Below are positions 950 to 58,836 of a stretch of DNA of 64,000 nucleotides, piece after piece. This DNA comes from Arachis hypogaea. Lineage: Eukaryota > Streptophyta > Magnoliopsida > Fabales > Fabaceae. The stretch's first letter is position 1. Each line of letters begins with the position of its first letter. The notes beneath the pieces were generated by a model. The model saw only the letters and a list, made by a program, of their open reading frames with translations, ran no database searches and was not told the origin of the DNA. The translations under genes and the position numbers were made by a program. The DNA lies in the NCBI RefSeq assembly GCF_003086295.3, contig NC_092044.1, forward strand, positions 70,189,213 to 70,253,212. The letters are read 5' to 3'.

Positions 950-994
950 CTTTTACCACACCAAACTTAAAAGGTTTGCTCATCCTCGAGCAAA
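950..994 (-). promoter_or_regulatory. Hexaloop hairpin plus AAGTTTGGTGT tract upstream of A ORF2
   Basis: On the minus strand the arms TTTGCTC and GAGCAAA (7 perfect pairs) enclose the loop GAGGAT at 87-82. A TTTTAAGTTTGGTGTGG tract follows, and the ORF2 ATG comes about 35 bases later. The same hairpin-tract pair occurs in C, D, E, F and K with different stem bases. Function unknown. Confidence 0.7.
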
Positions 995-1409
995 AGAGGA
1001 AAGAAAGAATAGGGAAGAAGAAGAAAATGGAGGAGATGGAGGGTTAAAGGTCATTCGGCCAAGAGAGGGGAAAGATGTTTGTATTGTGTGAATATGAAGG
1101 AGTAGTGAGGGGTTTATATAGGGGTGAGGGGAGGGTTAGGTTTTGGTCATTAGGGTTGGGTTTGGGAGGGAAAAGTGTTTTGAATTTGAAAGGTGAGGTA
1201 GGTGGGGTTTTCGGGGAAGAGGTATGGAGGTGATTAGTGAAGAGAATATAGGGAAGATAATAGAATTTGATTGGTGAGTGTTATAGAGATGTGTGAGGGG
1301 GAGAGAGAGAGAGAGAGGTGGGGTAGGTGAGGATCATGTGGGGTCCATAGATCCTGAGGTGTCAAGGATTTATCATCCATGCTCCTATTAGGCGTGTAAA
1401 CTCCCTTAC

Positions 1410-1700
1410 AGTGCAATCCTGGCATTTAACGCCAGATTGCTGCTTGTTTCTGACGTTTAACGCCAGATTGTAGCCTGTTTCTGGCATTTAACGCCAGCTT
1501 TTATTCTTGTCTTGGCGTTAAACGCCAGACTGCAACCTGTTTCTGGCGTTTAACGCCAGTTTGTTGCTTTTTTCTGGCGATTAACATCAGTCTGGTGCTT
1601 CTTTCTGGCATTTAACGCCCAGAATGGTGCCAGACTGGGTGTTAAAAGCCCATTCTGCTACCCTTACTGGCGTTTAAACGCCAGTAAGTTTCTCCTTCAG
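1410..1700. repeat. Array of self-complementary CTGGCGTTTAACGCCAG spacers in A
   Basis: About eight imperfect units with the core GGCGTTTAACGCC are spaced roughly 30-45 bp apart, separated by degenerate TTGCTGCTTGTTT-type linkers. Each core is close to a perfect inverted repeat. The array lies between the protease end and ORF2 and has counterparts at 28160-28445 (E) and 34905-35170 (F). Several cores have lost CpGs (GGCATTTAACGCC). Confidence 0.85.
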
Positions 1701-1875
1701 GGTGTGCTATTTTTAATGTTATTTTTTATTTTTATTTAATTTTTGTAGTTGTTTTTGTGACTTCACATGATCATCAACCTAAAAAAAGAAAATAGCATAG
1801 ATAAATAAAATTGGGTTGCCTCCCAATAAGCGCTTTTTTAATGTCAATAGCTTGATAGTGAGCTCTCATGGAGCT

Positions 1876-2901
1876 TCACAGATGTTCAGAGCATTGTCGG
1901 GACTTCCTAAAACCAAACGTAGAGTTTGAATGTGGGGGTTCAACACCAAACTTAGAGTTTGGTTGTTGCATCCCAACACCAAACTTAGAGTTTGACTGTG
2001 GGGGCTTTGTTTGACTCTGCATTGGGAGAAGCTTTTCTTGCTTCCTTTCCATGGTTACAGAGGGAGATCTTTGAGTTTTAAACACAAGGTATTCCTTATT
2101 CAATTGAAGGATCAACTCTCCTCTGTCCACATCAATCACAGCTTTTACTGTGGCTAGGAAGGGTCTTCCAAGGATGATAGATTCATCCTCATCCTTCCCA
2201 ATATCTAGGATTATGAAATCAGCAGGGATGTAAAGGCCTTTGACCTTTACTAGCACGTCCTATACCTGTCCATAAGCCTTTTTTATGGATTTGTCTGCCA
2301 TCTCTAATGAGAATTTGGCAGCCTGTACCTCAAAGATTCCCAGTTTCTCCATTATAAAGAGTGGCATTAAGTTTATGCTTGACCCCAGGTCACACATAGC
2401 TTTCTCAAAGGTCATGGTGCCTATGATATAGGGAATTAAGAATTTACCAGGATCCTGTTTCTTTTGAGGTAATGTCTGCCTAACCAAGTCATTCAGTTCA
2501 TTGGTGAGCAAGGGGGGTTCATCCACCCAAGTCTCATTACCAAATAAGTTGGCATTCAGCATCATGATTGCTCCAAGGTACTTAGCAAATTGCTCTTCAG
2601 TAATATCTTCATCCTCTTCAGAGGAGGAATACTCATCAGAGCTCATGAATGGCAGAAGTAGGATCAATGGAATCCCTATGGTCTCTAGATGAGTCTCAGA
2701 TTCCTTTGGTCCCTCAAAGGAGAACTCCTTATTGGTCAGTGAACGTCCTAGGAGGTCTTCCTCACTGGGATTCACGTCCTCCTCCTCCTCTCTAGGTTCA
2801 GCCACACCAAGTAAGGTTATGGCCTCGTACTCTCTTTTTGGATTCTCTTCTGTATTGCTTGGGATAGTACTAGGAGGAGTTTCAGTGACTCTTTTACTCA
2901 A
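1876..2901 (-). pseudogene. Retropepsin-like region of element A gag-protease frame
   Basis: Same reading frame as the gag at 4218. It begins with a Glu/Ser-rich acidic linker (SSSEEDEDITEEQ), then an aspartic-protease-like domain with AMCDLGSSINLMP, whose D-L-G-S matches the usual D-[ST]-G / D-L-G-A active-site turn of plant gypsy proteases. After an in-frame TAG at 2259-2257 it continues through PADFIILDIG and ESIILGRPFLATVKAVIDV, the C-terminal flap and hydrophobic core of this family. The tail repeats SNSKFGV three times because the DNA repeats the AAGTTTGGTGT tract in frame. Stops only and no frameshift point to point-mutation decay. No reverse transcriptase follows. Confidence 0.8.
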
Positions 2902-4218
2902 CTAGCCCACTTGTACCTCCAAATTTCTAATGGAGGACTTTGTTTCATTCATGAAACTTAGAGTGGCCTTAGATAGATCAGAGACTATATTTGCTAAGCT
3001 AGAGGGGCTCTGCTCATAATTCTCTGTCTACTGCTGAGAGGATGATGGAAAAGGCTTGCTATTGCTAAACATGTTTCTTCCTCCATTATTAAAGCCTTGT
3101 TGAGGCTTTTGTTGATCCTTCCATGAGAAATTTGGATGATTTCTCTATGAGGGATTATAGGTGTTTCCATAGGCTTCACCCATGTAATTCACCTCTGCCA
3201 TTGCAGGGTTCTCAGTATCATAAGCTTCTTCTTCAGAAGATGCTTCTTTAGTACTGTTGGATGCATTTTGCAATCCATTCAGACTCTGAGAAATCATGTT
3301 AACTTGCTGAGTCAACATTTTGTTCTGAGCCAATATGGCATTCAGAGTATCAATTTCAAGAACTCCCTTCCTCTGAGGCGTCCCATTATTCACAGGATTC
3401 CTTTCAGAGGTGTACATGAACTGGTTATTTTCAACCATTTCAATGAGTTCCTGAGCTTCTGCAGGTATTTTCTTCAGGTGAATAGATCCAGCTACAGAAT
3501 GGTCCAATGACATCTTAAACAATTCAAACAGACCATCATAAAATATATCCAGGATGGTCCATTCTGAAAGCATGTCAGAAGGACACTTTTTGGTCAGTTG
3601 TTTGTATCTCTCCCAATCCTCATAGAGAGATTCACCTTCTTTCTGTCTAAAGGTTTGAACATCCACTCTAAGCTTGCTCAGCTTTTGAGGAGGAAAGAAC
3701 TTGGCTAAGAAAGCCGTGACCAGCTTATCCCAAGAGTTCAGGCTATCTTTAGGTTGAGAGTCCAACCATATTGTAGCTCTGTCTCTTACAGCAAAAAGGA
3801 AAAGCATAAGCCTGTAGACCTCGGGATCAACCCCATTGGTCTTAACAGTATCATAGATCTGCAAGACTTCAGTTAAGAACTGAAAAGGATCTTCTGATGG
3901 AAGTCCATGAAACTTGAAATTCTGTTGCATCAGAGAAACTAATTGAGGCTTTAGCTCAAAATTGTTTGCTCCAATGGCAGGGATTGAGATGCTTCTTCCA
4001 TGGAAGTTGGAATTTGGTGCAGTAAAGTCACCAAGCATCTTCCTTGCATTGTTGGCATTGTTGTTATTTTCGGCTGCCATGTCTTCTTCTTTCTCGAAAG
4101 TTTCTGTTAGGTCCTCTCCAAAGGGTTGTGCTTTAGCTTCCCTTATCTTCCTCCTTAGAGTCCTTTCAGGTTCAGGGTCAGCTTCAACAAGAATGTTCTT
4201 GTCCTTGCTCCTGCTCAT
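2902..4218 (-). pseudogene. Gag-like capsid region of element A
   Basis: The ATG is at 4218-4216, just downstream of the AT-rich leader. After an N-terminal Lys/Arg/Glu segment comes a Ty3/gypsy gag domain (Retrotrans_gag type): RSISIPAIGANNFELKPQLV, LWLDSQP-like helix, SWDKLVTAFLAKFFPPQKL, ESLYEDWERYKQLTKKCP and DIFYDGL. A TAG at 3147-3145 ends the first long frame; the same frame goes on with two further TAG codons (near 3016 and 2902) into the protease region. The TAG at 3147 is at the same codon as in element F, while the others are private. No CCHC zinc knuckle is visible. Expected role: particle assembly; this copy cannot make a full product. Confidence 0.8.
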
Positions 4219-5790
4219 ATGAAAAAGAAGAAAACAGAAAAGAAGAGGAATCCTCTATGTCACAGTATAGAGATTCCTTTATGTGAGTAGAAGAAGAAAA
4301 GAATAGAAGAAGGAGAAGAGAAAAATTCGAACACAGAGAGAGAAGAGAAGAGGGTTTGAATTATGAGTAGAAGAGAAATGTTAGTAATTAAATAAATAAA
4401 TAGAAAAAGATGAGAGGGAGAGAATTTCGAAAATTGTTTTTGAAAACAGGTTAGTGGTTTTCAAAAATTATGAGAAGAAATAAAATTAAAATTAAAATTT
4501 GAAATAATTAGTTAAAAGAAAAAAAGAAATTTTTGAAAAAGATGAAGGTGATTTTCGAAAATTAGAGAGAGAAAAATAGTTAGGTAGTTTTGAAAAAGAT
4601 AAAAATTTAAAAAATCAAACAAAAAGTTTAGTGGTTAAAAAAAAGATTTGAAAATCAATTTTGAAAAGATAAGAAGTTAGAAAAGATTTTGAAATTAAAG
4701 TTTGAAAAAGATATGATTTGAAAATGATATGATTAAAAAGATATGATTGAAATTTATTTTGAAAAAGATTTGAAAAGGAAGTTAAAAAGATTTGATTTTT
4801 AAAATTAAAATTAATTACTTGACTAACAAGAAACTAAAAGATATGATTCTAGAATTTAAAGATTGAACCTTTCTTAACAAGAAAGTAACAAACTTCAAAT
4901 TTTTGAATCAATCACATTAGTTGTTAGTAAAGTTTTCAAAAATTATGAAATGAAATTAAAAAAAGATTTTGAAAAACAATTTTTTAAATTTTTTAAAATA
5001 AAAAAATGAAAAAGATTTGATTTTTGAAAAAGATTTTGAAAAGATAGGATTTTTGAAATTGAAATCTTGACTTGACTAACAAGAAACAACTTATTTTAAA
5101 ATTTTTTGACTAAGTCAACCCAAAGATTTCAAAAATTATGAGTAAAATAAGGAAAAGATATTTTTTATTTATTTTTTAACTTTTTAATGAGAAGAGAGAA
5201 AAACACAAATATGACTCAAAACATGAAAATTTTGGATCAAAACTAATGATGCATGCAAGAACACTATGAATGTCAAGATGAACACCAAGAACACTTTGAA
5301 GATCATGATGAACATTAAGAACTTATTTTTGAAAAATTTTCAAGAAAAGAAAGAATGCAAGACACCAAACATAGAAATTTTTAATGCTTAGACTCTAAGA
5401 ATTCAAAAATGCATATGAAAAACAACAAAAGACACAAAACAAGAAAATATGAAGATCAAACAAGAAGACTTACCAAGAACAACTTGAAGATCATGAAGAA
5501 CACCATGCATGAGTTTTTGAATTTTTTTTTAGAAAAATTAAAACATGCAATTGACACCAAACTTAAAAATTGACTCTAGACTCAAACAAGAAACACAAAA
5601 ATATTTTTTGATTTTATGATTTTATAATTTTTTTGTAATTTTTCGAAAATTAATTTTGGAAAAATGAAAAAGAAGAAAAATTTTAAAAGATTTTTGAAAA
5701 CTTTTTGAAAACAAAATAAAGGTTGAAATAAGAAGAAAATTACCTAATATGAGCAACAAGATGAACCGTCAGTTGTCCAAACTCGAACAA
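4219..5790 (-). other. Long AT-rich leader of element A
   Basis: Between PBS and gag lie about 1.57 kb with no gene. The minus strand is T/C-rich (TTTTTCAAAAATC-type units), nearly free of CpG apart from small palindromes TTTTCGAAAA, and includes AAGTTTGGTGTC tracts near 5560 and 5370. The same organisation recurs in E and F. Confidence 0.75.
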
Positions 5791-5808: not shown

Positions 5809-5814
5809 AAAACT

Positions 5815-7516
5815 TGGTACACAAAATTGTGATCTCAATAGCGCCAACAGCTTGGTATGGACAATTGTAATCTCAACTCTTTTTCAAAACTTCGCACAAC
5901 TAACCAGCAAGTGCACTGGGTCGTCCAAGTAATAAACCTTATGTGAGTAAGGGTCGATCCCATGGAGATTGTCGGCTTGAAGAAAGCTATGGTCATCTTG
6001 TAAATCTCAGTCAGGCGGATTCAAATGGTTATGGAGTTTTGATAATTAAAAGATAAATAAAACATAAAATAAAGATAGAGATACTTATGTAAATCATTGG
6101 TGGGAATTTCAGATAAGCGTGTGGAGATGCCTCATTCCTTTTGAAATTCTGCTTTCCTACTGCCTTCATCCAATCCATCATACTCCTTTCTATGGCAAGC
6201 TGTATGTTGGGTGTCACCGTTGTCAATGGCTACTTCCCGTCTTCTTAGTGAAAATGGTCCTCTACGGTTTCCCGCATGGCTAATCAGCTGTTGGTTCTCG
6301 ATCATGTAGGAATAGGATTTACTATCTTTTTGCGTCTGTCATTACACCCTACAGTCACGAGTTTGAAGCTCGTCACAGTCATCCTATCCCAGATCCTACT
6401 CGGAATACCACAGACAAGGTTTAGACTTTCCGGATCTCAAGAATGCTGCCAATTGATTCTAGCTTATACCACAAAGACTATGATCTCATGGAATTGAAGG
6501 CTCTATTGTTAGGAGAGGCAATCAAATGCATGGACCAGGGATCCAAGAGATACAAACTCTAGCTTTCACAGGTAGAACGGAAGTGTTTGTCAGGCACACG
6601 TTCATAAGTGAGAATGGTGATGAGTGTCACGGATCATCACATTCATCAGGTTGAAGTACGAATGAATATCTTAGAATAAGAATAAGCATGAATTGAATAG
6701 AAAATAGTAGTAATTGCATTAATACTCGAGGAACAGCAGAGCTCCACACCTTAATCTATGGTGTGTAGAAACTCCACCGTTGAAAATACATAAGTGAAAA
6801 TAGGGTAGGTATGGCCGTGAGGCTAGCCCCCAATGTCTAAGGACTAACAATAATCAAAGATGTTCCAAAAGCTCGTCCAAAGATAGATAATACAATAGTA
6901 AAAAGTTCTATTTATACTAAACTAGTTACTAGGGTTACAGAAATGAGTAAATGATGCAGAAATCCACCTCCGGGCCCACTTGGTGTGTGCTTGGGCTGAG
7001 CAATTAAAGCTTCCACGTGTAGAGGTCTTCCTTGGAGTTAAACACCAGTTTGTAACTTATTTCTGGCGTTTAAATCTGCTTTGCAACTTATTTTTGGCGT
7101 TTAATGCCAGAATAGGGCAGAAAGCTGGTGTTAAAAGCCAGTTTGCGTCGTCTAAATTCGGGCAAAGTATGAACTATTATATATTTCTGGAAAGCCTTGG
7201 ATGTCTACTTTTCATCGTAATTGAGAGCGTGTCATTTGGACTTTTGTAGCTCCAAAAATTTCATTTCAAGTGCAAGGAGGTCAGAATCCAATAGCATCAG
7301 CAGTCTGTTGTCAGCCTCTAAATCAGATTTTTGCTTATGTCCCTCAATTTCAGCCAGAAAATACCTGAACTCACAGAAAAACACACAAACTCATAGTAAA
7401 GTCTAGAAATATAAATTTTGCTTAAAAACTAATAAAAATATACAAAAAAGTTAATAAAATATACTAAAAACTATATAAAAACAATGCCAAAATGTGTATA
7501 AATTATCCGCTCATCA
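5815..7516 (-). repeat. 5' LTR of element A
   Basis: 1702 bp. On the minus strand it starts TGATGAGCGGATAATT (7516) and ends ...TGTACCA (5815). It holds a U3 hairpin module (about 7166-7255), several GGCGTTTAA spacers (7035-7150), a TATA box (6916-6909) and a U5 anti-tRNA motif with stem-loop (about 5971-5910, GGGATCGACCC). Confidence 0.9.
6909..6916 (-). promoter_or_regulatory. TATA box of LTR A
   Basis: TATAAATA on the minus strand, at the same place relative to the U3 hairpin module as the TATAAATA of element F (29787). Confidence 0.6.
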
Positions 7517-13959: not shown

Positions 13960-14325
13960 ATTCTTGATGAAAAGAAGACTCCAACAATCACACAACCACC
14001 AAGATTTGGATTCAAGGAAGTGAAGGCAATTAACAAAAGCACCAAGAAGAGGATTGTGACCAAGCTACCAAGGACAATATTCATGAAGAAAAAAGGGTCA
14101 ACCACAAGCAATCCTCCCCCTGATCCAGTAAGCAAGCTCAATCAAGCCATTAACAAAAGAAAGCTTGCTGAGGAGAGGCCAAGACAGGGGACACTAGCTA
14201 AATCTTCTTCCCCCTTAAGGTCATTCCTATTAACAAATTGGAAGAAGAGGAAGAAAGTGAACAACATGTCAACCATAGGTATAATTTCTCTTCTCTGCTT
14301 TGTTTTCGTTCTTTGTTTTATTTAA
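13960..14325 (+). pseudogene. In-frame continuation of the C ORF after a TGA
   Basis: Directly after the TGA the same frame codes for a basic segment: PRFGFKEVKAINKSTKKR, LPRTIFMKKKG, LNQAINKRKLAEERPRQ, then SSPLRSFLLTNWKKRKK, and a hydrophobic tail ending at TAA 14325. The change from an acidic to a strongly basic region without frame shift suggests one protein cut by a single nonsense mutation. Readthrough is possible, but the codon context (CAA TGA ATT) does not match the classic CARYYA readthrough signal. Confidence 0.65.
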
Positions 14326-15020
14326 ATTCAATAAATTGGCATATGGTTACATTTTAAGTTTGGTGTTGCCTTGCAACAAATTGTTTTCAATCTTTTTGGA
14401 TGATTGCATCAAATCAAAAATGAAAGTGATACACCAAGATTCTAAGTTTGGTGTGCCATTTATTTTCTATGCAATTTATTCAAGCAACACTACTTGTCTG
14501 CATAATCATAATGCCTCTGCAGTTTTAGTTTTCTCTTTTGATTTGACACTTTTGCATTCTACTTGATTTAGTTATTTTTCTACATTTAAATGCTTTCATT
14601 TAGTTTGCTTATTAACTGTTTTTGTTAATACATTACCAAGAGATCCTTATTCATGACAGATTCTTAGCTTGGTGATTGTATTTAACATACAACAGTTTCA
14701 TTTGCTTAGTTTTAATTCAAATAAATTGACATATGATTGCATTCTAAGTTTGGTGTTGCTATGCAACAAAATTTGTTTCCAATCTTTACTGGATACTTGC
14801 ATTAATTCCAAGTGAAAGTGTCACACTAAGTTTGGTGTGCCACTTATCTTTTATGCAATGTATTGTGCTCACCTTCTTAAGTTTGCAATCAAAATGTCTC
14901 TGTCTCTTGTGCCTTAATTGTTATCTTTAATTTTGCTTACTTGAAACACATGTGATACTAATGTTTCATTGTGTAAGACATTCATGATCTATCTTAGCCC
15001 CATAGCCACGGTTCTAATTG

Positions 15021-15059
15021 TTGCTTGAGGACAAGCAATCATTCTAAGTTTGGTGTGGG
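15021..15059 (+). promoter_or_regulatory. Internal hexaloop hairpin plus CTAAGTTTGGTGT tract of C
   Basis: Arms TTGCTT (15021-15026) and AAGCAA (15033-15038) around the loop GAGGAC, then CTAAGTTTGGTGTGGG at 15044-15059. About 1 kb upstream of the 3' LTR. Confidence 0.75.
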
Positions 15060-16008
15060 AAGGGAAAGAAAAGGAAGAAAAGGACAACAATAGAGAAGAT
15101 AAATTACAAGGTTGTAAAGTTCTTTTTCCTCTCATTTATTTCCAGCACTTTAAATTGCATGATTGTCTTATTACCTTCTTTATATACATGTGTGGTATGA
15201 ATAGGCATAGTTTGATTTCTAAATTGCAACATGCTGCTGTGACATTATGACTACCAACTTGAGTTTTGTGAATACAAAAGCAATAAAGTATCATGATCTT
15301 AAACAAACAAGGAATTAAAGAAGAATTTAGTATGTGCATACAAGTATTGGAAAGCTAGTATGATTGATTGTTGCTCAAGTACATTAGATTTTATTTAATT
15401 GAAGTTTTCATCTAGGACATTTTGTGAAATCTTTTGAAAATCATGAAAACCTTGAAGAAGCAAATGCAATTAAGGCAAGAAAAGAAAAAGGGAAAGAATG
15501 AGAAAGCTGAAGGCTCTGAGTACTAATGACAATTTCATTGTTATGTACTTGTGGTGTTTATGTATCAAGTAAAATGCTTGAAAACAAAACACTTAGAAGT
15601 CAAGGCTAGGCTCAAGTGCAAAAGCACTCCCTCAAAGCTCAAGGCTCTGAGCATCAATGATTAGAGAGTCAAGAAAAGAAATAAATGAGCTTAATGAAGT
15701 CCTCTAATTAAATGCTTGTGGTGCTTATATATCAAGTGGTAATACTTGAAAATAAAGCATTTAGAATCGTAGCTTTGTTATTAACTCATGGGGCAAAGCA
15801 CCCAAAAGGAGAAGCTAATAAGAAAAATCAAAAGCTTGTTTCAAGGAAGAATTATAAGAAAAAGATTTCATGAGGTGAGCTAGATAGAAGCATCAATCAT
15901 TTACATTTCTTTTGTGATTGTAGCATGCATAGAAAACTAGCTTGCCATGAACATTAACTTGCTATTCTTCTAACCTTGGATTGTCAATCTCTATTGCATG
16001 ATTCTTTT

Positions 16009-16045
16009 CTTGCTTGAGGACAAGCAAGGTTTAAGTTTGGTGTTG
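16009..16045 (+). promoter_or_regulatory. LTR-proximal hexaloop hairpin and polypurine-type tract of C
   Basis: Perfect 7-bp arms CTTGCTT (16009-16015) and AAGCAAG (16022-16028) around GAGGAC, then TTTAAGTTTGGTGTTG (16030-16045) abutting the 3' LTR. The tract occupies the polypurine-tract position for plus-strand priming, though it is T-containing. Confidence 0.8.
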
Positions 16046-19299: not shown

Positions 19300-19483
19300 A
19301 ATTTTTAGATTTTTCAGATTACCAATAATACTTCACTTTTATCATCATTCTTTCAAGAGCCAACATTCTTAACTCAAACATCAAACACGCACTATTCATT
19401 CATGCATTCAGAAAATAAAAGCAATGCCACTACATCAAATAATTGAACTATTTTTAATATATAACTCGAAATTCATGCATCCT
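19300..19483 (-). other. 3' UTR fragment of element E between C and D
   Basis: No gene. Its reverse complement aligns with F 37040-37230 (TTATTTTCTGAATG, GTTGGCTCTTGAAA, ATTGGTAATCTGAAAA). It ends with ATCCT (19479-19483), the left TSD of D. Confidence 0.8.
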
Positions 19484-21019
19484 TGACACAAGAATTATTG
19501 TCGGTAAGGAATTTCACAAAATATTTACATTGTAGGTATAGCCCCAAACCAAAAAACAACTCTCACATCAAATTAAATTATGGTTTTGTCACAAGTAGCA
19601 AACCCCCAAATAAGAATTAACCGAAGTATTCGGACTCCGGGTCGTCTCACATGGAGTTGCAATGAAGTTTATGATTATTGGCTATAAGATGTGTTTTTGG
19701 GGTTTTTGGAATAAGAGACATGAAAAGTAAATGGTAAAGGAAATCAAATGACAAAAAGGTCTTGGCAAGGATTGGTGGTCAAGGATCTCTATCCTTATCA
19801 CTAACCACAACATGAGAATTGGCAAGGATCAACCCCATTAAGTCATCCTCTAACTGATAAAGGAAAGTCAAATGAGCTATGTCAATCCAAGTCCATAAGT
19901 CCTAGGTCTCCACCGATTCAATTAGTGAGACCTAGAGTCAATGGCTCCCACTCATCAATCACTTGGACATTAGTAACTCAAGAGTTCCTAAGTTACCTCT
20001 CCAAGCCAAGAGCATAAAATTCTGCTCTAAAGCCCAACCAAGCATTTCATCAGACACTTGGAAGGCATAAAAGGGAAGCATGGTAAATGTGCAAAAATAG
20101 TAAAATCTGCCAACTACAAATTGCAATAAAGTAAATTAACAACCCAAATCATCAATAAAAGAACAGCAAACATTAAATTGCATTAAAAATAAACCAAATC
20201 CAACATGAGTGTTCATGAACATATAAGAGACATAAAAGTAAAATTGACAAAAGAGCTAAGAAGAATAGAATATTAGAAACAAGAAATTAGAAAGGAAACA
20301 AGATGAAATCAAGAAATCATGCCTAGATCTAAGATGGATTAACCTAACCTAACCTAATTCTAGAGAGAAGAGGGAGCTTCTCTCTCTAGAAACTAACCTA
20401 CATGATGCTAATGCTACAAACAATTGCTCCCCCTTTGCCCAAGCTTGAATTCTGCATGAAATAGCATTAGAAATGAGTTGGGTTGGACCCAAAGTGCTTC
20501 AAAAATCGCTGGGGGCTATTTTACTTTAGTGGGCCACGAGCAGCATCGGCATGCACGCATAGATGGCATGTGCGTGCCCCTGAATGCGAAGTAACATATG
20601 ATAAATTTTATATCATTTCGAAGCTCCGGATGTTAGCTTTCCAACACAACTGGAACCACTTCATTTGGACCTTTGTAGCTCAAGTTATGGTCGTTTGAGT
20701 GCGAAGAGGTCAGGCTTGACAGCTTTACGGTTCCTTCATTTCTTCATGAGTTCTCCCACTTGTATGCTTTTCTCCTCACTTCTTCCATCCAATACTTGCC
20801 TTATGAACCTGAAATCACTCAACAATCACATCAAGGCATCGAATGGAATTAAAGTGAATTAAAGTCACCAATTTTAGGGCCTAAAAAGCATGTTTTTACA
20901 CTTAAGCACAAATCAAGGGAGAATTGCAAACTCATGCTATTTCATCGAATAAATGTGAGAAAATGTGATAAAATCTCCCAAATTAAGCACAAGATAAACC
21001 ACAAAATTGGAGTTTATCA
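19484..21019 (-). repeat. 3' LTR of element D
   Basis: Sense strand starts TGATAAACTCC (21019) and ends CTTGTGTCA (19484). U3 module at about 20700-20601 (TTGGAAAGCT then AGCTTCGAA), CpG spacers at 20530-20590, U5 CGACCCGGAG followed by the stem CCGAA-TAC-TTCGG near 19640-19625. Confidence 0.92.
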
Positions 21020-21056
21020 AATCTCCCCACACTTAAACTAAGCATTTCCTCATGCT
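21020..21056 (-). promoter_or_regulatory. LTR-proximal hexaloop hairpin and TTTAAGTGTGGGG tract of D
   Basis: On the minus strand AGCAT-GAGGAA-ATGCT (21056-21041), then TTTAAGTGTGGGGAGAT ending at the 3' LTR. The tract is the group-2 form of TTTAAGTTTGGTG in groups 1 and 3 and is more purine-rich, fitting a plus-strand primer. Confidence 0.75.
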
Positions 21057-22170: not shown

Positions 22171-22209
22171 ACCTCCCCACACTTAAAATTTTGCACCGTC
22201 CTCAGTGCA
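22171..22209 (-). promoter_or_regulatory. Internal hexaloop hairpin plus TTTAAGTGTGGGGAGG tract of D
   Basis: Minus strand: TGCACT-GAGGAC-GGTGCA (22209-22192; the closing T/G would be a wobble pair in RNA), then TTTTAAGTGTGGGGAGG. It lies about 1.2 kb upstream of the 3' LTR copy. Confidence 0.75.
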
Positions 22210-23983: not shown

Positions 23984-25675
23984 CTACCAATGCTTGGATT
24001 TCCATTGTGCTTTATCATCCAAAGTTAATAACTCCAAGATTTGATGGAATTCTTCACAAACCATGGGCTCCCAAAGTTGATCCTCCTCTTGTAATCTGAG
24101 ATCCCACACTTTGTTTTCACACCCGTCTTTGAGTTGATCACGGTAAGTTTCTCCAGGTGGCAAGCAAGATGAGTTCCCACCAAGGCACCAAACTACCCTC
24201 CTAGACCCATCTACATGAGCACTAGTCCAACCCTTACTCCTGGAAGCTTCAACCATAATGAGCCTAGACTTATGACGCCAACCACTAAACATTCTCCTCT
24301 TATGCTTCATTCCATAAAGCGCTCTAAGTGGGCCATCCGTTTCAAGCAAACCAAATTCAAGTGGGATAATAAAGCTAAGATTTAGAAGTTTTACCCACTC
24401 AAATGAAGGATTGGATGACAACCTAGTTGGAGGAGTTCCCAACGGTCTTGACAAGGCACGCTCCACTCCCGTCCATCCTCTTCTAGAGGCTTCCACCACT
24501 TGGCAAGGTCTTTCAAGCTTCACCCCTTGCCAAACATCCTCAACTTCACATTCTTCTTCACCAATGTCCTCTAGCTCTTCCCCATCACTCAAATCATACA
24601 TAGGAGGTTGAGTAAAATCTACCTGGTCATCAATTCCAAGTAGAGTGGGGAAGGATTCCTCAAACTCAAAAGGATCATATGTTGATGTAGAATCATCATA
24701 AATAGGAGGCCCTATTGCTTGGAACACTTCTTCTAACTCTTCACTCGAATTGTGTCTTAGAGGTTGTGCACTCTCCTCCTCAACACCAACTTCAAACTCC
24801 ATTGAAAAAGGCTCTTCAATTTGTGATTTCCCTATATACTCAACATATCCTAAGGTTCCAACCACTACTTCCTCTTGTTCAATCATCTCTACCTTCTCTT
24901 CTTATTGCACTTATTGCCTTAACTCCCCTTCTTCACCTTGAAACTCCAATTCTACTCCTTCACTAAGCTCCTTGGTTACTTCTCCACATTCAACAATGGG
25001 AGTGCCTTGATCACGCAAGCTTAGGCAGGATGAGACTACATTGCTAACGACTTCTACCAGGATGGCTACCTTAGCTCCTATCTTCTTAAGCTTCTTTTCC
25101 TCCTCCTCTTGATTCCTTAGGATACGAAATTCAATATCTCTTAGTTCTAGCAAGAGGACATCATCAGGAGGTGGTGGTGGAAGAGAGGGTTTATTATTTG
25201 AGGGAAGGGTATTGTAGTTGGAAGGTGATTCATATTGGTGAAACTCTTGAGGTGGTGTGTAAGGACTTTGTGGTTTATGGGAGTATTGGTGTTGGAATGG
25301 TGATGGCTCTAAATATGGTTCATATGGTGGTTGGTATGGTGGGTATGGGTTAGGATTATATGGAGGTGGTTGATGGTATGAGGCTTGTGAGCATGGTGAA
25401 AGGCTATGTTGAAGAGGCGGTTCATAAGCATAGTGTGGTGGTGATTGTGATTAACAACTACAATAAGGATCATCACACACACTAGATTGATATGCATTAG
25501 GAGTGGAATTATACCCATAAGTGTCCGGAGGAGGTTGTTGCCAAGAAGGTTGATCAATCCCTTAAGGCTCCTTCCATCCTTGATTCCCAAATCCTTGATA
25601 CACATCCCCATTGAATCTTCCAGTCCCTACAACATATTTGTAACCAAACTTATAGCCAAAGGGATGCAAATTCAT
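23984..25675 (-). pseudogene. Group-2 non-autonomous ORF (D): Tyr/Pro-rich N-terminus, acidic middle, conserved C-terminal domain
   Basis: ATG at 25675-25673; one frame to TAG/TAA near 23984 with about four to five nonsense codons (near 25562, 25452 and 24913-24902) and no frameshift. The N-terminus is FGYKFGYKYVVG followed by Tyr/Pro/Gln-rich sequence. The middle is Glu-rich, with EEEEKKLKKIGAKVAILVE predicted helical and a second acidic block (DGEELEDIGEEECEVEDVW). The C-terminus has FEWVKLLNLSFIIPLEFGLL, ETDGPLRALYGMKHKRRM and RLIMVEASRSKGW. The last part is strongly conserved in K (60378-61871). I recognise no known domain. It occupies the gag position; a chaperone-like, capsid-binding or captured host segment are all open possibilities. 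Confidence 0.7.
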
Positions 25676-25833: not shown

Positions 25834-25839
25834 TTAATT

Positions 25840-27374
25840 TGACACAAGAATTATTGTCGGAAAGGAATTTCACAAAATATTTACGTTGTAGGTATAGCCC
25901 CAAACCAACAAACAACTCTCACATCAAATTAAATTATGGTTTTGTAATAAGTAGCAAACCCCAAATAAGAATTAATCGGAGTATTTGGACTCCGGGTCGT
26001 CTCACAAGGAGTTGCAATGAAGTGTATGATTATTGGCTATAAGATGTGTTTTGGGGTTTTTGGAATAAGAAACATGAAAAGTAAATGGTAAAGGAAATCA
26101 AATGACAAAAAGGTCTTGGCAAGGATTGGTGGTCAAAGATCTCTATCCTTATCACTAACCACAACATGAGAATTGGCAAGGATCAACCCCATTAAGTCAT
26201 CCTCTAACTAATAAAGGAAAGTCAAATGAGCTATGTCAATCCAAGTCCATAAGTCCTAGGTCTCCACTAATTCAATTAGTGAGACCTAGAGTCAATAGCT
26301 CCCAATCATCAATCACTTGTACATTAGTAACTCAAGAGTTCCTAAGTTACCTCTCCAAGCCAAGAGCATAAAATTCTACTCTAAAGTCCAACCAAGCATT
26401 TCATCAGACACTTGGAAGGCATAAAAGGGAAGCATGGTAAATGTGCAAGAATAGTAAAATCTGCCAACTACAAATTGCAAGAAAAGTAAATCAACAACTC
26501 AAATCATCAATAAAAGAACATCAAACATTAAATTGCACTAAAAATAAACCGAATCCAACATGAGTGTTCATGAACATATAAGAGACATAAAAGTAAAATT
26601 GACAAAAGAGTTAAGAAGAATAGAATATTAGAAACAAGAAACTAGAAAGGAAACAAGATGAAATCAAGAAATCATGCCTAGATCTAAGATGGATTAACCT
26701 AACCTAACCTAATTCTAGAGAGAAGAGGGAGCTTCTCTCTCTAGAAACTAACCTACAAGATGCTAATGCTACAAACAATTGCTCCCTCTTTGCCCAAGCT
26801 TGAATTCTGCATGAAATAGCATTAGAAATGAGTTGGGTTGGGCCCAAAGTGCTTCAAAAATCGCTGGGGGCGATTTTACTTTAATGGGCCATGAGCAGCA
26901 TCGGTGCGCACGCGTACATGGCAGATGCGCGCCCCTGAACGCGAAGTAACATATGGCAAATTTTATTCCATTTCGAAGCCCCGGATGTTATCTTTCCAAC
27001 ACAATTGGAACTACTTCATTTGGACCTCTATAGCTCAAGTTATGGTTGTTTGAGTGCGAAGAGGTCAGGCTTGACAGCTTTACGGTTCCTTCATTTCTTC
27101 ATGAGTTCTCCCACTTGCATGCTTTTCTCCTCACTTCTTCCATCCAATACTTGTCTTATGAACCTGAAATCACTCAACAAACACATCAAGGCGTCAAATG
27201 GAATTAAAGTGAATTAAAATCACCAATTTTAGGGCCTAAAAAGCATGTTTTTACACTTAAGCACAAATCAAGGGAGAATTGCAAATTAATGCTATTTCAT
27301 TGAATAAATGTGAGAAAATGTGATAAAATCCCCCAAATTAAGCACAAAATAAACCACAAAATTGGGGTTTATAA
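25840..27374 (-). repeat. 5' LTR of element D
   Basis: 1535 bp. The start on the minus strand is TTATAAACCCC (27374), where the terminal TGAT has mutated. U3 module at about 27060-26951. The U5 stem is CGGAGT-CCAAAT-ACTCCG (about 25998-25980), a paired variant of the 3' LTR form. Confidence 0.9.
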
Positions 27375-27734
27375 ATCGTACTTTTCTTTTTCAATTAAAT
27401 TTTTTTTCTTTTAAGCAAGGTGAGAGATGCATGGAATATTTCATACCTTTAAGACTTGTAAAGATGATCATGTACTAGAAACAGACAATAAGACATAAAA
27501 CATAATGGGAAACAGAAAAGAAATAACTTAGGCAATGGGATTAAGGGAACGGGACCACCTTAGTGATGGCAGCTGCTACTCCCTCTAGTGGATCCAATGG
27601 AGTGTTTCAGCTCCTCTTTGTCTTTTCCTTGCCTCTGTTACTCCTCCTTCATAGTTCTTTGATCTTCTCTTATCTCATGGAGAGGTGTTCAGTTGATCCC
27701 AAAAAAAATTTGGGGTGAAAAATACATTCCTTGA

Positions 27735-28004: not shown

Positions 28005-28023
28005 AATTTGCTCATCCTCGAGA
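28005..28023 (-). promoter_or_regulatory. Decayed hexaloop hairpin upstream of E ORF2
   Basis: Minus strand TTTCTC-GAGGAT-GAGCAA: the loop is intact but the left arm carries a mismatch relative to A (TTTGCTC). The following tract is TTCAATTTGGTG instead of TTTAAGTTTGGTG. Confidence 0.55.
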
Positions 28024-28159
28024 AAATATGAACACAAAAAGAATAGAGTAGAAGAAGAAGAAAAAGGAGAGATAGAGGGTGAGGTAGGTGGGGTAGGTTG
28101 AGATTTTGTGGGACCCACTGGTTCTGAGAGGCTAGGAAATTCGAAATCCCTACCCCCTT

Positions 28160-30817: not shown

Positions 30818-30835
30818 TGGCGCCGTTTTCGGGGA
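30818..30835 (+). other. Primer-binding site of F (tRNA-Asp type)
   Basis: TGGCGCCGTTTTCGGGGA, 16 of 18; the GC to TT change is not a simple CpG loss. Confidence 0.85.
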
Positions 30836-33426: not shown

Positions 33427-34698
33427 AGAAATCATCCAAATTTCTCATGGAAGGATCAACAAAAGCCTCAACAAGGCTTTAATAATGGTGGAAGAAACAT
33501 GCTAAGTAATAACAAGCCTTGTCCATCATCTTCTTAGCAACAGACAGAGAATTCTGAACAGGGCCCCTCTAACTTATCAAACATAGTCTCTGATCTGTCT
33601 AAGGCCACTTTAAGTTTCATGAGTGAAACAAGATCCTCCATTAGAAATTTGGAGGCACAAGTGGGCCAGCTGAGTAAGAAAGTCATTGAAACTCCTCCCA
33701 GTATTCTCCCAAGCAATACAGAAGAGAATCCAAAAGGAGAGTGCAAGGCCATTGATGTAATCAATATGGCCGAATGCACAAGGGAGGAGAAGGACGAAAA
33801 TCCTAGTGAGGAAGACCTCCTGGGACGTCTCTCAAACAAGAAGGAGTTCCCTATTGAGGACCTAAAAGAATCTGAGGCTCATATAGAGACCATAGAGATT
33901 TCATTAAATCTCCTTCTGCCATTCATGAGCTCTGAAGATTATTCTTCCTCTGAAGAGGATGAAGATGTAACTGGAGAGTAAGTTGCTCAATATCTAGGAG
34001 CCATCATGAAGCTCAATGCCAAGTTATTTGGTAATGAGACTTGGGAAGGTGAACCTCCCTTGGTCATTAGTGAACTTGATACATGGGTTCAGCAAACTCT
34101 ACCTCAAATGAAACAAGATCCTGGGAAATTCTCAATACCCTGTACCATAGGCACCATGACCTTTAACAAGGCTCTGTGTGACCGGGGGTCAGGGATAAAT
34201 CTTATGCCACTCTCTGTAATGGAGAAATTAGGGATCATTGAGGTACAACCTGCCTTATTCTCATTACAATTGGCAGACAAGTCAGTAAGACAGGCTTATG
34301 GATTAGTAGAGGATGTGTTGGTAAAGGTTGAAGGCCTTTACATCCCTGCTGATTTCATAATCCTAGACACTAGGAAGGAAGAGGATGAATGCATCATCCT
34401 TGGAAGACCTTTCCTAGCCACAGCTGGTGTTGTAATAGATGTTAACAGAGGAGAATTAGTCCTTCAATTGAATGGGGAGTACCTTGTGTTTAAGGCACAC
34501 GGCCATCCCTCAGTAACAAAAGAGAGTAAGCATGCAGAGCTTCTCTCAGTACAGAGTCCAAAAGAGCCCCCACAATCAAACTCTAAGTTTGGTGTTGGGA
34601 GGCCACAACCAAACTCTAGGTTTGGTGTTGAGAAGACCCCACATTCAAACTCTAAGTTTGGTGTTGGGAAACCTTCATCATGCTTTGAACTTCTCTAA
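33427..34698 (+). pseudogene. Protease-like region of element F
   Basis: Same frame as the gag, continuing past TAG 33426, a TAG near 33535 and a TAA at 33979-33981. A coiled segment SSIRNLEAQVGQLSKKV and an acidic linker (SSSEEDEDVTGE) come first, then a retropepsin-like domain: ALCDRGSGINLMP, PADFIILDTRKEEDE and CIILGRPFLATAGVVIDV. The active-site turn reads D-R-G where A has D-L-G, a change likely to matter. The C-terminus has three in-frame SNSKFGVG repeats encoded by AAGTTTGGTGTTG tracts. The polymerase part expected next is absent. Confidence 0.8.
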
Positions 34699-35612: not shown

Positions 35613-35649
35613 TTGCTCGAGGGCGAGCAATATTTTAAGTTTGGTGTGG
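35613..35649 (+). promoter_or_regulatory. Hexaloop hairpin plus TTTAAGTTTGGTGT tract upstream of F ORF2
   Basis: Arms TTGCTC (35613-35618) and GAGCAA (35625-35630) around GAGGGC, then TTTTAAGTTTGGTGTGG (35633-35649). It follows a (TTC)n pyrimidine run and precedes the ORF2 ATG (35686) by 36 bases. Confidence 0.8.
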
Positions 35650-35685
35650 TAAAAGCATAAGATTTTTGTTTTTCCATAACCATTG

Positions 35686-36834
35686 ATGGCACCCAAGGCC
35701 GGAGAATCCTCTAGAAAAGAGAAAGGTAAGACAAAAGCTTCCACCTCCGAGTCATGGGAGATGGAAAGATTCATCTCCAAAGCCCATCAAGACCACTTCT
35801 ATGATGTTGTGGCCAAGAAGAAGGTGATCCCTGAGGTCCCTTTCAAGCTCAAGAAAAATGAGTATCCGGAGATCCGACATGAGATCCAAAGAAGAGGTTG
35901 GGAAGTTCTAACCAACCCCATTCAACAAGTCGGGATTTTAATGGTTCAAGAGTTCTATGCCAATGCATGGATCACTAGGAACCATGATCAAAGTATGAAC
36001 CCGAATCCAAAGAACTATCTTACAATGGTTCGGGGAAAATACTTAGATTTTAGTCCAGAAAATGTGAGGTTGGCGTTCAACTTGCCCATGATGCAAGGAG
36101 ATGTACGCCCCTACACTAGAAAGGTCAACTTTAATCAAAGGTTGGACCAAGTCCTTATGGACATATGTGTGGAAGGAGCTCAATGGAAAAGAGACTCCAA
36201 AGGTAAGCCGGTTCAACTAAGAAGACTGGACCTCAAGCCTGTGGCTAGAGGATGGTTGGAGTTTATTCAATGCTCCAACATCCCCACTAGCAACCGATCT
36301 GAAGTTACTGTGGATCGGGCCATCATGATTCATAGAATCGTGATTGGAGAGGAAGTAGAAGTTCATGAAGTCATCTCCCATGAATTCTATAAAATAGCCG
36401 ATAAGTCCTCTACTTTGGCAAGGCTAGCTTTTCCTCATCTTATTTGCCATTTATGTTACTCAGTTGGAGTTATCATAGAAGGAGACATCCTCATTGAGGA
36501 GGACAAGCCCATCACTAAGAAAAGGATGGAGCAAAAAAGAGAGCCCACTCATGGAGCCCAAGGGACGCATGGGGAAGCTCATCACCAAGAAATCCCGGAG
36601 ATGCCTTAAGGGATGCACTTTCCTCCCAACAACTATTGGGATCAACTCAACACTTCCTTAGAAGATTTGAGTTACAATGTGGAACAATTAAGGGTGGAAC
36701 ATCAAGAGCACTCCATCATTCTCCATGAAATAAGAGAAGATCAAAGAGCAATGAGGGAGGAGCAACAAAGGCAAGGAAGGGACATAGAAGAGCTTAAGGA
36801 CATTGTTGGTCCTTCAAGAAGAAGACGCCACTAA
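35686..36834 (+). pseudogene. ORF2 of element F, plant-transposon-domain protein with C-terminal coiled coil
   Basis: ATG at 35686 (MAPKAGESSRKEKGK). A basic N-terminus is followed by WEMERFISKAHQDHFYDVV, NPIQQVGILMVQEFYANAW, VRLAFNLPMMQGD and VARGWLEFIQCSNIPTSNRS; this resembles the Putative plant transposon protein domain (Transposase_32 type). A TAA at 36607-36609 (one base from CAA) interrupts the frame. It resumes in phase with YWDQLNTSLEDLSYNVEQL and a Glu/Arg/Gln-rich coiled coil ending at TAA 36834. Apart from this single stop the gene is intact, unlike the gag. Function unknown; the domain is widespread next to plant gypsy elements. Downstream of a hairpin, so possibly translated from its own transcript (inference). 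Confidence 0.78.
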
Positions 36835-37885: not shown

Positions 37886-37923
37886 GTTGCTTGGGGACAA
37901 GCAACAATTTAAGTTTGGTGTTG
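37886..37923 (+). promoter_or_regulatory. LTR-proximal hexaloop hairpin and TTTAAGTTTGGTGTTG tract of F
   Basis: Perfect 7-bp arms GTTGCTT (37886-37892) and AAGCAAC (37899-37905) around GGGGAC; TTTAAGTTTGGTGTTG (37908-37923) touches the 3' LTR. Confidence 0.85.
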
Positions 37924-39545
37924 TGATGAGCGGATAATTTATACGCTTTTTGGCATTGTATTTAGGTAGTTTTTAAAAGGTTCAAGCTACTTTTAGGGCT
38001 ATTTTCATTAGTTTTTATGTTAAATTCACATTTCTGGACTTTACTATGAGTTTGTGTGTTTTTCTGTAATTTCAGGTATTTTCTGGCTGAAATTGAGGGA
38101 CCTGAGCAAAACTCTTATAGGAGGCTGACAAAGGACTGCTGATGCTGTTGGAATCTGACCTCTCTTCACTCGAAATGGATTTTCTGGAGCCACAGAACTC
38201 CAAATGGCGCGCTCTCAACGGCGTTAAAACGTAGACATCCAGAGCTTTCCAGCAATATATAATAGTTCATACTTTATTTGAGAATTGACGACGTAAACTA
38301 GCGCTCAACGCCAGCTCCATGTTACTGTCTGGAGTCAAACGCCAGAAACACGTCACGAACCGGAGTTGAACGCCCAAAACACGTTACAACTTGGCGTTCA
38401 ACTCCAAGAGAAGTCTCAGCTCGTGGATAAATCAAGCTCAGCCCAAACATACACCAATTTTACCCCGGAATTGGATTTATGCATCAATTACTTACTCCTG
38501 TAAACCTTAGTAGCTAGTCTAGTATAAATAGGATAGTCTACTATTGTATTGGACATCTCTGGACGCCTAGTCCTTAGACCTTCATGGGGGCTGGCCATTT
38601 GGCCATGCCTGAACCTCTTTCACTTATATATTTTCAACGGTGGAGTTTCTACACACCATAGATTAAGGGTGTGGAGCTCTGCTGTACCTCAAGTTTCAAT
38701 GCAATTACTACTATTTTCTATTCAATGCGATTTATTCCTGTTCTAAGATATTCGTTGCACTTCAACTTGATGAATGTGATGATCCATGACACTCATCATC
38801 ATTCTCACCTATGAACGCGCGTGCCTGATAACCACTTCCGTTCTACCTTAGACCGGGCGCATATCTCTTGGATTCCTTAATCAGAATCTTCATGGTATAA
38901 GCTAGAATTGATGGCGGCATTCATGGGAATCCGAAAAGTCTAACCTTGTCTGTGGTATTCCGAGTAGGATTCCGGGATTGAATGACTGGAGCTTCAAACT
39001 CCTGAAGGCTAGGCGTTAGTGTCAGACGCAAAAGAATCATGGGATTCTATTCCAGCCTGATTGAGAAGCGATAGATGATTAGCCGTGCTGTGACAGAGCA
39101 TTTGGACCATTTTCACTGAGAGGATCGGATGTAGCCATTGACAACGGTGATGCCTTACATACAGCTTGCCATGGAAAGAAGTAAGAAGGATTGGATGAAA
39201 GCAGTAGGAAAGCAGAGATTCAACAGGGACAAGCATCTCCATATGCTTATCTGAAATTCCCACCATTAATTTACATAAGTATTTCTATCCTTTATTATTT
39301 AAGCAAGTATCTCTTTATATTTCCCATAACCAATTATTATCCACCTGACTAAGATTTACAAGGTGACCATAGCTTACTTCATACCAACAATCTCCGTGGG
39401 ATCGACCCTTACTCACGTAAGGTATTACTTGGACGACCCAGTGCAATTGCTGGTTAGTTGTGCGGAGTTGTGACTAAGTATAATTCACGTGTGAGAGCTA
39501 CCAAATTATTGGAGCCATTGTTGATGATCACAATTTCGTCCATCA
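37924..39545 (+). repeat. 3' LTR of element F
   Basis: 1622 bp, ends TCCATCA followed by the TSD GTCTT. U3 module about 38188-38275, TATAAATA 38523-38530, U5 motif and CCTTAC-TCAC-GTAAGG stem near 39397-39423. Confidence 0.95.
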
Positions 39546-50927: not shown

Positions 50928-50938
50928 GCTCTTTAAAA

Positions 50939-50956: not shown

Positions 50957-50989
50957 ATTGCAAATGTGTGCCTTATTATTGGTTATTGT

Positions 50990-55900: not shown

Positions 55901-56095
55901 CCAAAATTCAACCAAAATTCCATTTAAATTCAATTCCTCTCCAAATTGAATCAAGGCCAACCAAACCCATTTCTCCTCAAATCCAAAGCAAGCAAAGCCC
56001 ACATCATCACTCAAAGGCACATGGATCAATTAAATTAAGATTTTTATTTTTGTAATTTGTTTTAATTTCATTTTCATTTTTCATTTAGTAAAGCC

Positions 56096-56104
56096 TATAT
56101 AAAG
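56096..56104 (+). promoter_or_regulatory. TATA box of solo LTR L
   Basis: TATATAAAG in AAAGCCTATATAAAGGC, same as in C. Confidence 0.7.
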
Positions 56105-57338: not shown

Positions 57339-57376
57339 ACCTCCCCACACTTAAACACTAGCATGTCCTCATGCTA
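57339..57376 (-). promoter_or_regulatory. LTR-proximal hexaloop hairpin and TTTAAGTGTGGGGAGG tract of K
   Basis: Minus strand TAGCAT-GAGGAC-ATGCTA (57376-57359), 6 perfect pairs, then TGTTTAAGTGTGGGGAGG up to the 3' LTR. Confidence 0.8.
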
Positions 57377-58008
57377 AGCTCAAGAGAAACTATAAAGATG
57401 AAGAGGAATGGTAGATTAATATGAAATGCAATCCTATCTATATGAATGCAACTACATGCAGAATGTTTCTACCTACTTGGTTAAAAATAAATAAATCTTT
57501 CAAGAACATATATGAACTGGATTTCACTGATTCAAATCATAAAAATGAAGTAAAAGTAAACTTGCAGAAGAAAATAGCTCATGAAAGCCGAGAACAAAGA
57601 ATCGAGCATCGAACCCTCATTGGAAGTGTATACACTCTAATCATTCAAGTGTTTAAGGTTCGACTCTCTCAATTCTCTACTAACCTTGCTTTCTAAGGCT
57701 TGCTCTTCATCTAACAATCAACAAAAATTTAATGCATAAATACAAATATCAAGAGGTCTTTTAAGGGTTGTAATGGGGTTAGGGTCATGGTAGGATTGTA
57801 TTTGGCCAAGGGGACTAAAAATCTTAATCCTTAATTAACTTAAACTTTTCCACCTAACTTAGACAATCCATGTAATCATAATACAACATCTAACCATCCA
57901 TTAACTATGTTTTCCACATATTCATACGTTCTAATTTCAAGTACAACTCATATGCATTGCTTTCACCACTCACTTTGGGGCATTTTGTCCCCTTTTATTT
58001 GCTCTTTT

Positions 58009-58079
58009 TCTTTTCTTTTCTTTTCTTTTTCTTTTATTTTTCTCTCTTTTTTTATATTATTTTTCTTTTCTTTTTCTCA
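58009..58079. repeat. (TTTTC)n pyrimidine tract in K
   Basis: About 70 bp of TTTTC/CTTTT repeats after TTTGGGGCATTTTGTCCCC; the homologous site in D is a (TA)n repeat. Confidence 0.85.
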
Positions 58080-58799
58080 ATGCATATGATTAAATTATTG
58101 AATGCATAAACATGTCCTAAACATTTCTTTCACATTTTCAGAAATTTCTAACATACTCAATTCTCAAACCAAATGTTTCCAAACACAATTTTTCCACACT
58201 TAAATCATAAGCACTTTCACTAGTCTAAGCTAACCAAGGATTCAAATTAAGGACATTATTGTTTTTCGCTTAGAGTTGATGATGTGCTAAAATAAAGAAC
58301 AAATGGGTATAATAGGCTCAAAATTGGTTTGCAAGGGATAATGAAAGGTAAGGCCATATGGGTATGTGAGCTCAGTGAAACAAAGGCCTCAATCATGTAA
58401 GTGCATGTATACATCAAATAATGGAAATATAGAATTAAGCAAGACAAAGATCACAATTTTAGAGAGAAAAACACACATCAAAAATAAATTATTGGTTGAC
58501 AAAATGCAACCAATCAATTAGGCTCAAAAATCTTACAGGTTTTGTGTGTTCGAGCTCTAAACCATGTTCCAATATAATATTTCTTCAAACAAGTGTAACA
58601 AAAAATTTTATTCAAATTAGTGAAATACTTTAAAAGGTTTCTTGGAAAAGAAAATATTACTTCAACCAAGTGGTAAAATATGCAAAAAATCAAACAAATA
58701 TGCAATCAATTATGCAAATGCAACAATGAACAAACCAATAAAATAAAAAAATTTTGGTGTTGAGTCAAGAAATAACTAACCCATAGAGATCGGTATCAA

Positions 58800-58836
58800 C
58801 CTCCCCACACTTAAAGATTGCACCGTCCTCGGTGCA
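58800..58836 (-). promoter_or_regulatory. Internal hexaloop hairpin plus TTTAAGTGTGGGGAGG tract of K
   Basis: Minus strand TGCACC-GAGGAC-GGTGCA (58836-58819), 6 perfect pairs; the D copy has a T/G pair at the closing position. The tract TTTAAGTGTGGGGAGG follows. About 1.5 kb from the 3' LTR. Confidence 0.8.

Follow-up and report, generated by a model that had tools for sequence, protein, structure and literature searches.

A hairpin with compensated stem changes and an adjacent box at the polypurine tract position of nested LTR elements in peanut

What is the short hairpin that recurs through a 64-kb stretch of nested long terminal repeat (LTR) elements of Arachis hypogaea, and what is its relation to the box that follows it? 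The stretch (64,000 nucleotides of contig NC_092044.1, positions 70,189,213–70,253,212; hereafter the window) belongs to a genome of 2.557 Gb, and its nested LTR elements, labeled by letters, were recognized by self-comparison and from the LTR ends. An initial annotation had reported ten copies of a hexaloop hairpin in front of a tract and considered them a selected base-paired structure, a cis element shared by elements with unrelated proteins. A scan of the window revealed nine intact copies with a GRGGRN loop, a stem of 5–8 bp (G.U pairs allowed) and a box matching at 12–13 of 13 positions. They were located at the places reported; the letters of one box, that of the internal copy of element C, were found to be TCTAAG rather than TTTAAG. 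A tenth copy is decayed (Table 1) and is perhaps the one that had been assigned to element E.

The distance from the loop start to the box was 14–16 nt in the nine copies. The combination of hairpin (stem of at least 5 bp) and box (at least 12 of 13) was found in 0 of 100 dinucleotide shuffles of the window. When the box was not required by the scan, it was nevertheless present after eight of the nine window hairpins with this loop and a stem of at least 6 bp; 13 of the 22 box-like sequences of the window were without such a hairpin. In elements C, D, F and K, the copies are paired and lie 0.99–2.27 kb apart, one of them being terminal and the other internal, upstream of it. The terminal copy of D has the loop GAGGAA and a stem of 5 bp. 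Element A has a single copy because the window ends. Two copies per element were also found in the genome loci L001/L002 and L007/L008.

Compensatory change was analyzed using an alignment (A1) of 36 of the 37 distinct 22-mer sites; the site L047, which has lost its 5' arm, was omitted, and a MAFFT alignment (A2), in which letters were matched at the expense of the stem register, was not used. Over the seven pairs of A1, 91.3% of cells were paired versus 59.4% in shuffled data, 72 cells were double changes versus 22, and the covariation score was 0.784 versus 0.207; in each of these measures, 0 of 500 shuffles was as high. Each of the seven pairs shows double changes, and in slid registers only 27–52% of cells were paired. 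When the loop pair G1–C6 replaced the outermost pair, the proportion paired was 96.0% versus 66.4% in shuffles. In addition, one medoid per flank cluster was taken (35 clusters, 177 copies): 193 of 210 cells were paired and 22 of 35 stems were full, compared with means of 108 cells and 4.9 full stems and maxima of 143 and 13 in 10,000 arm permutations. Note that the flanks were clustered by ungapped comparison, which partly splits related families, so that 35 is not the number of independent origins. The pooled sets (177 copies for clustering, 187 for folding) combine the 100 unselected places with copies chosen for odd arms and with second copies from loci of 3 kb; at least two places are included twice (L030 = L053, L034 = L143).

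Ten fully paired six-base stems were found, namely TTGCTT/AAGCAA, TTGCTC/GAGCAA, AGCACG/CGTGCT, TAGCAT/ATGCTA, TGCACC/GGTGCA, AAGCAT/ATGCTT and GGCACG/CGTGCC, together with AGCATC/GATGCT, GGCACC/GGTGCC and TGCACG/CGTGCA, each seen once. Among the xGCACy stems, the outer pair (T–A, G–C or A–T) and the inner pair (C–G or G–C) occur in five of six possible combinations. In a prediction test on 30 copies whose 3' arm starts with C or T, all six expected pairs were present in 18, including the stems AGCACG/CGTGCT, GGCACG/CGTGCC and TGCACG/CGTGCA. Genome-wide, with no box required, the loop-closing pair 1 of the TTGCTY stem was T–A in 23,891 copies, C–G in 13,785, T.G in 691 and C.A in 654, that is, T–A or C–G in 37,676 of 39,021. 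It is well supported that the structure is real and that compensatory change has preserved its pairing from family to family; the stem differences between families noticed earlier are compensated.

Several results weigh against this conclusion. All seven A1 pairs changed on both sides, which is the ceiling for this measure, versus 6.1 in shuffles (170 of 500 as high), and 16 further pair types were counted versus 14.2 (97 of 500 as high); with the G1–C6 version, the same two measures were equaled by 170 and 161 of 500 shuffles. Of the five measures, these two are the ones that relatedness inflates least. In the prediction test, 12 of the 30 copies failed, ten with one mismatch and two with two, and three of them (L150, L160 and L168) share C.C at pair 1. 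The counts of T.G and C.A are about equal and therefore carry no RNA-strand signature; they do not tell which strand folds. A search for odd arms, with A or T at arm position 4, gave 2,818 genome matches; GAGAAA was present in 12 and GGTACA in 12 of the 100 listed places. Of the 30 loci examined from this search, 22 were element copies (15 with G.U, 7 with a mismatch and none with a compensated A–T) and the other eight were other sequences. The uncompensated GAGAAA and GGTACA variants may have spread as subfamilies. In our reading, most uncompensated variants come from dead copies that have decayed, in agreement with the equal counts of T.G and C.A.

To estimate abundance, the genome was searched with the pattern GAGG-N9-13-TTTAAGTKTGGKG, in which GAGG and the box are required and hence conserved by construction. 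In this and the other genome searches, the first 100 places per search were listed, and every fetched locus was on contig C1. The pattern gave 30,761 + 31,183 = 61,944 matches in 2.56 Gb and, when read backwards, 18 + 18 = 36. All six pairs were kept in 91 of the 100 listed places, 86 of these being entirely Watson–Crick. Neither a dominance of uncompensated changes nor the conservation of one arm only, named in the initial annotation as signs that it was wrong, was seen in these unselected copies, and the genome counts together with the covariation support its view of a selected, base-paired cis element. The loop was GAGGAC in 88 listed places, GAGGGC in 6, GAGGAT in 4, and GAGGGA and GAGGGT in one each; at the positions left free by the search, position 5 was A or G in 100 of 100 copies and position 6 was C or T in 99 of 100. 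The spacing from loop start to box was 14, 15 and 16 nt in 9, 59 and 32 copies. A coding explanation was rejected because this spacing varies by single bases, which allows no common reading frame.

RNAfold paired G1 with C6 in seven window copies, leaving a four-base RGGR loop of the AGGA type, and the C or T at position 6 is what closure by G–C or G.U needs. The hairpin loop described earlier is real, but it is probably a G–C-closed RGGR tetraloop according to this prediction and not a hexaloop. Against the predicted fold, RNAfold placed the stem in the minimum free energy (MFE) structure for only 7 of the 9 copies in the window and for 149 of the 187 in the pooled set.

The tract behind the hairpin was confirmed, and its identity can be refined by two points absent from the initial annotation, namely a second copy inside the element and the polypurine tract (PPT) position. 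In elements C, D, F and K, the TG of the 3' LTR follows 3–5 nt after the terminal box, which places the site immediately 5' of the LTR, and the link between box and PPT is strong by position. Among 72 terminal copies, chosen by a rule that accepts only tails of 3–5 nt and dominated by two big families, the loop start was 30, 31, 32 and 33 nt from the LTR in 2, 52, 17 and 1 copies, respectively, and the end of the six-pair stem was correspondingly 18, 19, 20 and 21 nt away. The commonest terminal stems combine spacing and tail as 15+3 and 14+4, with the same total. The K-type site has purines at 11 of 17 positions and contains GGGGAGG. Three facts count against the assignment. The F/C-type sequence TTTAAGTTTGGTGTTG has only 7 purines among 16 positions; as it is not purine-rich, the PPT label rests on position. 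Spacing and tail do not always compensate each other (15+4 for TAGCAT stems, 14+3 in C). Finally, the internal copies have no LTR after them.

Similarity of the elements to the Athila/Calypso group was evaluated by four traits. Six primer-binding sites (PBS) of the window start with TGGCGCCGTT; those of C and K are TGGCGCCGTTGCCGGGGA, and those of A, D, E and F differ at 1–2 bases. The PBS of Diaspora and Calypso is complementary to tRNA-Asp (PMC1142308, excerpt), and a peanut Athena probe contains the same 18 PBS letters (PMC5904367); the tRNA-Asp-type PBS is thus present in the window elements. The second trait, an extra PPT in the linker, corresponds to the two hairpin and box copies per element in C, D, F and K. 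For the third, a Gag together with an extra sense open reading frame (ORF), a gag domain (PF03732) was found in A and PF20167 in F, and a Pfam search of the C, D and K ORFs gave no match. As to the fourth, the phylogeny of reverse transcriptase (RT), RNase H and integrase, an RT domain was not found in the 20 scanned of 61 window frames of at least 100 aa, nor in the 10 scanned of 15 frames of at least 120 aa in loci L173–L175. No RT-bearing element carrying the hairpin and box was seen in the frames scanned from this genome, which weighs against the priming role proposed below; in favor of that role, pol is present in only 4 of 11 Athila families of Arabidopsis (PMC2410132, excerpt).

The earlier statement that the encoded proteins are unrelated held in BLASTP comparisons, which revealed no real similarity between the C and K ORFs, between the A gag and the K ORF, or between the C ORF and the gag-protease ORF of L174. 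The D ORF (23984–24901, minus strand) and the K ORF (60378–61592, minus strand), which belong to one group, are related with 35% identity and are without a Pfam match. In L173, an internal copy of the F type is preceded by copia-type pieces (gag, integrase and SH3-like; 338–2867), which looks like the insertion of a copia element.

The choice of the plus-strand primer is commonly attributed to the purine tract itself. The position, spacing and pairing described above suggest that hairpin and box together make up a two-part cis element with which Athila-type Ty3/gypsy elements prime their plus-strand DNA, a mechanism that we infer with a probability of roughly 55%. Its first part would be an RNA hairpin of 6–8 bp with a purine RGGR tetraloop closed by G–C, and its second part the box TTTAAGTKTGGKG with 3–5 further nt, 14–16 nt after the loop start. 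In the downstream copy, this second part reaches the 3' LTR, the place required for the plus-strand primer, and the upstream copy would be a second, internal PPT. The hairpin may stall reverse transcriptase during minus-strand synthesis and so place RNase H at the PPT/U3 junction; alternatively, it may help to select or protect a primer that lacks a clean polypurine tract. Given the 18–21 nt between stem end and LTR, a stall at the hairpin could bring RNase H near the junction. In HIV-1 RT, the polymerase-to-RNase H distance is 18 bp (PMC5766924, excerpt); the value of about 13 bp for Ty3 RT (PMC5371799, excerpt) argues against such a fit. A stall of this kind would help to explain the non-polypurine F/C-type site.

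Elements without pol need enzymes in trans, and we propose that the hairpin and box are what the shared machinery reads. A more far-reaching version, which we hold only tentatively, is that the hairpin acts as a molecular ruler, RNase H cutting 18–19 nt back at the PPT/U3 junction, which would free the primer from the need for polypurine and make the unit a portable tag for unrelated pol-less elements replicated in trans by Athila-type enzymes. If priming is the function, the hairpin would be a structural cis determinant that accompanies both primer sites and is common to elements whose ORFs are unrelated; it would explain how degenerate primer sites work and allow pol-less Athila dependents to be recognized in annotation. 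A single genome would offer tens of thousands of natural variants in which structure and spacing can be compared.

Other functions could be assumed for the same hairpin. The first is RNA packaging, with the RGGR tetraloop bound by Gag and the adjacency to the PPT due to nucleocapsid chaperoning of the plus-strand start or to an inherited position. The AGGA-type fold predicted by RNAfold and the constraint on the free loop positions 5 and 6 agree with it, and RGGR loops may resemble GG-containing tetraloops of retroviruses. We nevertheless regard packaging as unlikely, as it would not by itself demand a box at an almost constant distance from both copies, and packaging signals are usually located near the 5' leader.

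A role in the mRNA (translation start of the extra ORF, export, stability or 3' end formation) appears improbable. The internal box of F does end 33 nt before the PF20167 frame, but the internal copy is also retained in C, D and K, which have no frame of at least 200 aa between their two copies, and the terminal copy precedes the LTR and not an ORF. To the same low degree, we consider an inverted repeat acting at the DNA level, as a cruciform or a hairpin of the single-stranded minus strand, in strand transfer or integration. Covariation suits DNA hairpins too, as do the equally common T.G and C.A; however, only the terminal copy lies near an LTR end, with its stem ending 18–21 nt before the LTR. 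That the hairpin is an old inverted repeat without function, carried by descent and by recombination between families, is very improbable: the window elements share a PBS type and could have one origin, and recombination between distant Athila families is reported (PMC2410132, excerpt), but pairing has been kept through ten fully paired six-base stems with flanks in 35 clusters (ungapped, with some related families split).

Athila4 and Calypso are among the known systems closest to the proposed priming element. One extra PPT is reported for each (Wright and Voytas 2002, as given in an excerpt of PMC2829016), so that, as here, one PPT-like site adjoins the 3' LTR and another lies further upstream on the pol side, and the PBS type is that of Calypso and Diaspora (PMC1142308, excerpt). 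The difference is that no hairpin before these sites is mentioned in the excerpt of PMC2829016; Wright and Voytas 2002 may describe one. Sireviruses (Ty1/copia) also have a conserved inverted repeat precisely beside the PPT and multiple PPT copies (PMC2829016, excerpt). However, they are of another superfamily, their repeat encloses the PPT, with the left arm bordering it and the right arm inside the 3' LTR, and their upstream PPTs are without the repeat; in the window elements, both arms lie upstream of the box in both copies. The HIV-1 PPT is similar in having a T-run (the U-tract) directly before the primer, but a local hairpin is not part of it as described in the excerpt of PMC5766924. 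Ty3 likewise has its plus-strand primer beside the 3' LTR, but with a clean purine tract that itself lies within a weakly predicted paired region, no known central PPT and no upstream hairpin (PMC5371799 and PMC11381356, excerpts).

Rfam 15 gave no match at gathering score in the whole window, and a scan of a viral collection revealed four exact motif matches, whose stems did not exceed 3 pairs. A literature search with the motif letters returned no retrotransposon paper by title among the matches listed, and one other search returned only an unrelated paper. The word "hairpin" is absent from the main text of PMC1142308, PMC11963269, PMC2829016, PMC2410132 and PMC5371799 (Wright and Voytas 2002 being outside this check), and by other terms no such hairpin was found described in excerpts of PMC6317226, PMC7264820, PMC11381356 and PMC5766924.

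Table 1. Coordinates of the hairpin and box copies and of other element features in the window.
Feature	Position	Strand	Basis or remark
A internal-type hairpin TTTGCTC-GAGGAT-GAGCAAA	975–994, loop start 987	-	scan; not MFE fold
A box TTTAAGTTTGGTG	959–971	-	box scan
C internal hairpin GTTGCTT-GAGGAC-AAGCAAT	15020–15039, loop start 15027	+	scan, RNAfold
C internal box TCTAAGTTTGGTG	15043–15055	+	box scan
C terminal hairpin, up to 8 pairs	16008–16029, loop start 16016	+	scan, RNAfold
C terminal box plus TTG (PPT position)	16030–16045	+	3' LTR from 16046
D terminal hairpin AGCAT-GAGGAA-ATGCT	21041–21056, loop start 21051	-	centroid, not MFE
D terminal box TTTAAGTGTGGGG	21025–21037	-	LTR TG 5 nt after
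D internal hairpin TGCACT-GAGGAC-GGTGCA	22192–22209, loop start 22203	-	scan, RNAfold
D internal box TTTAAGTGTGGGG	22175–22187	-	box scan
Decayed copy, 5 of 6 pairs, box 10 of 13	28008–28025, loop start 28019	-	
F internal hairpin TTGCTC-GAGGGC-GAGCAA	35613–35630, loop start 35619	+	scan, RNAfold
F internal box TTTAAGTTTGGTG	35634–35646	+	
F terminal hairpin GTTGCTT-GGGGAC-AAGCAAC	37886–37905, loop start 37893	+	scan, RNAfold
F terminal TTTAAGTTTGGTGTTG (PPT position)	37908–37923	+	3' LTR from 37924
K terminal hairpin TTAGCAT-GAGGAC-ATGCTAG	57358–57377, loop start 57370	-	scan, RNAfold
K terminal box TTTAAGTGTGGGG	57343–57355	-	then AGGT, LTR TGATAAACC
K internal hairpin TGCACC-GAGGAC-GGTGCA	58819–58836, loop start 58830	-	scan, RNAfold
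K internal box TTTAAGTGTGGGG	58803–58815	-	box scan
A 5' LTR	6570–7516 as aligned	-	element interrupted by window start
C LTRs	start 9048 and 16046	+	3' LTR begins TGATGCC at 16046
D LTRs	5' LTR 25839–27377; 3' LTR 19483–21023 (as aligned)	-	
F 5' LTR	29189–30811	+	aligned stretch 93.7% identical to 37914–39545
F 3' LTR	37924–39545	+	begins TGATGAG; target-site duplication GTCTT
K 3' LTR	57338 down to ~53784	-	PBS at 62208; LTR start TGATAAACC
F PBS	30818–30835	+	begins TGGCGCCGTT
PBS sites like that of F	12303+, 50939+, 62208-, 25833-, 5808-		sequence match
A gag ORF (stop to stop)	3145–4254	-	PF03732
F extra ORF (stop to stop)	35680–36609	+	PF20167 (Transposase_32, putative plant transposon protein)

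Internal boxes of the D/K type often precede a short palindrome or inverted repeat (GGTCGGCCGACC, GGTCACACGACC, GGTCGATACC), as at 22187–22155 and 58815–58780 on the minus strand and in L022, L144, L151 and L156; a second hairpin after the box is possible. In terminal copies of the K type, GGTTGATAAACC extends across the junction with the LTR. Box-like CTAAGTTTGGTG repeats lie at 34582–34663 (plus strand, with GAGGCCACAACCAAA at 34599) and at 1944–2003 (minus strand), in the frames after gag; they match the box without a hairpin of the right form, and similar ones recur across the genome. Upstream of the internal copy of element C, four box-like sites without a hairpin (14353, 14441, 14743 and 14825, plus strand) are located in two repeated blocks, 14309–14480 and 14697–14864. 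At L034/L143 (G000:C1:12631029), an internal copy of the D/K type runs through AGGTCGG into TGATGAGCGG, with which an F-type LTR starts; this looks like the insertion of an F-type element.

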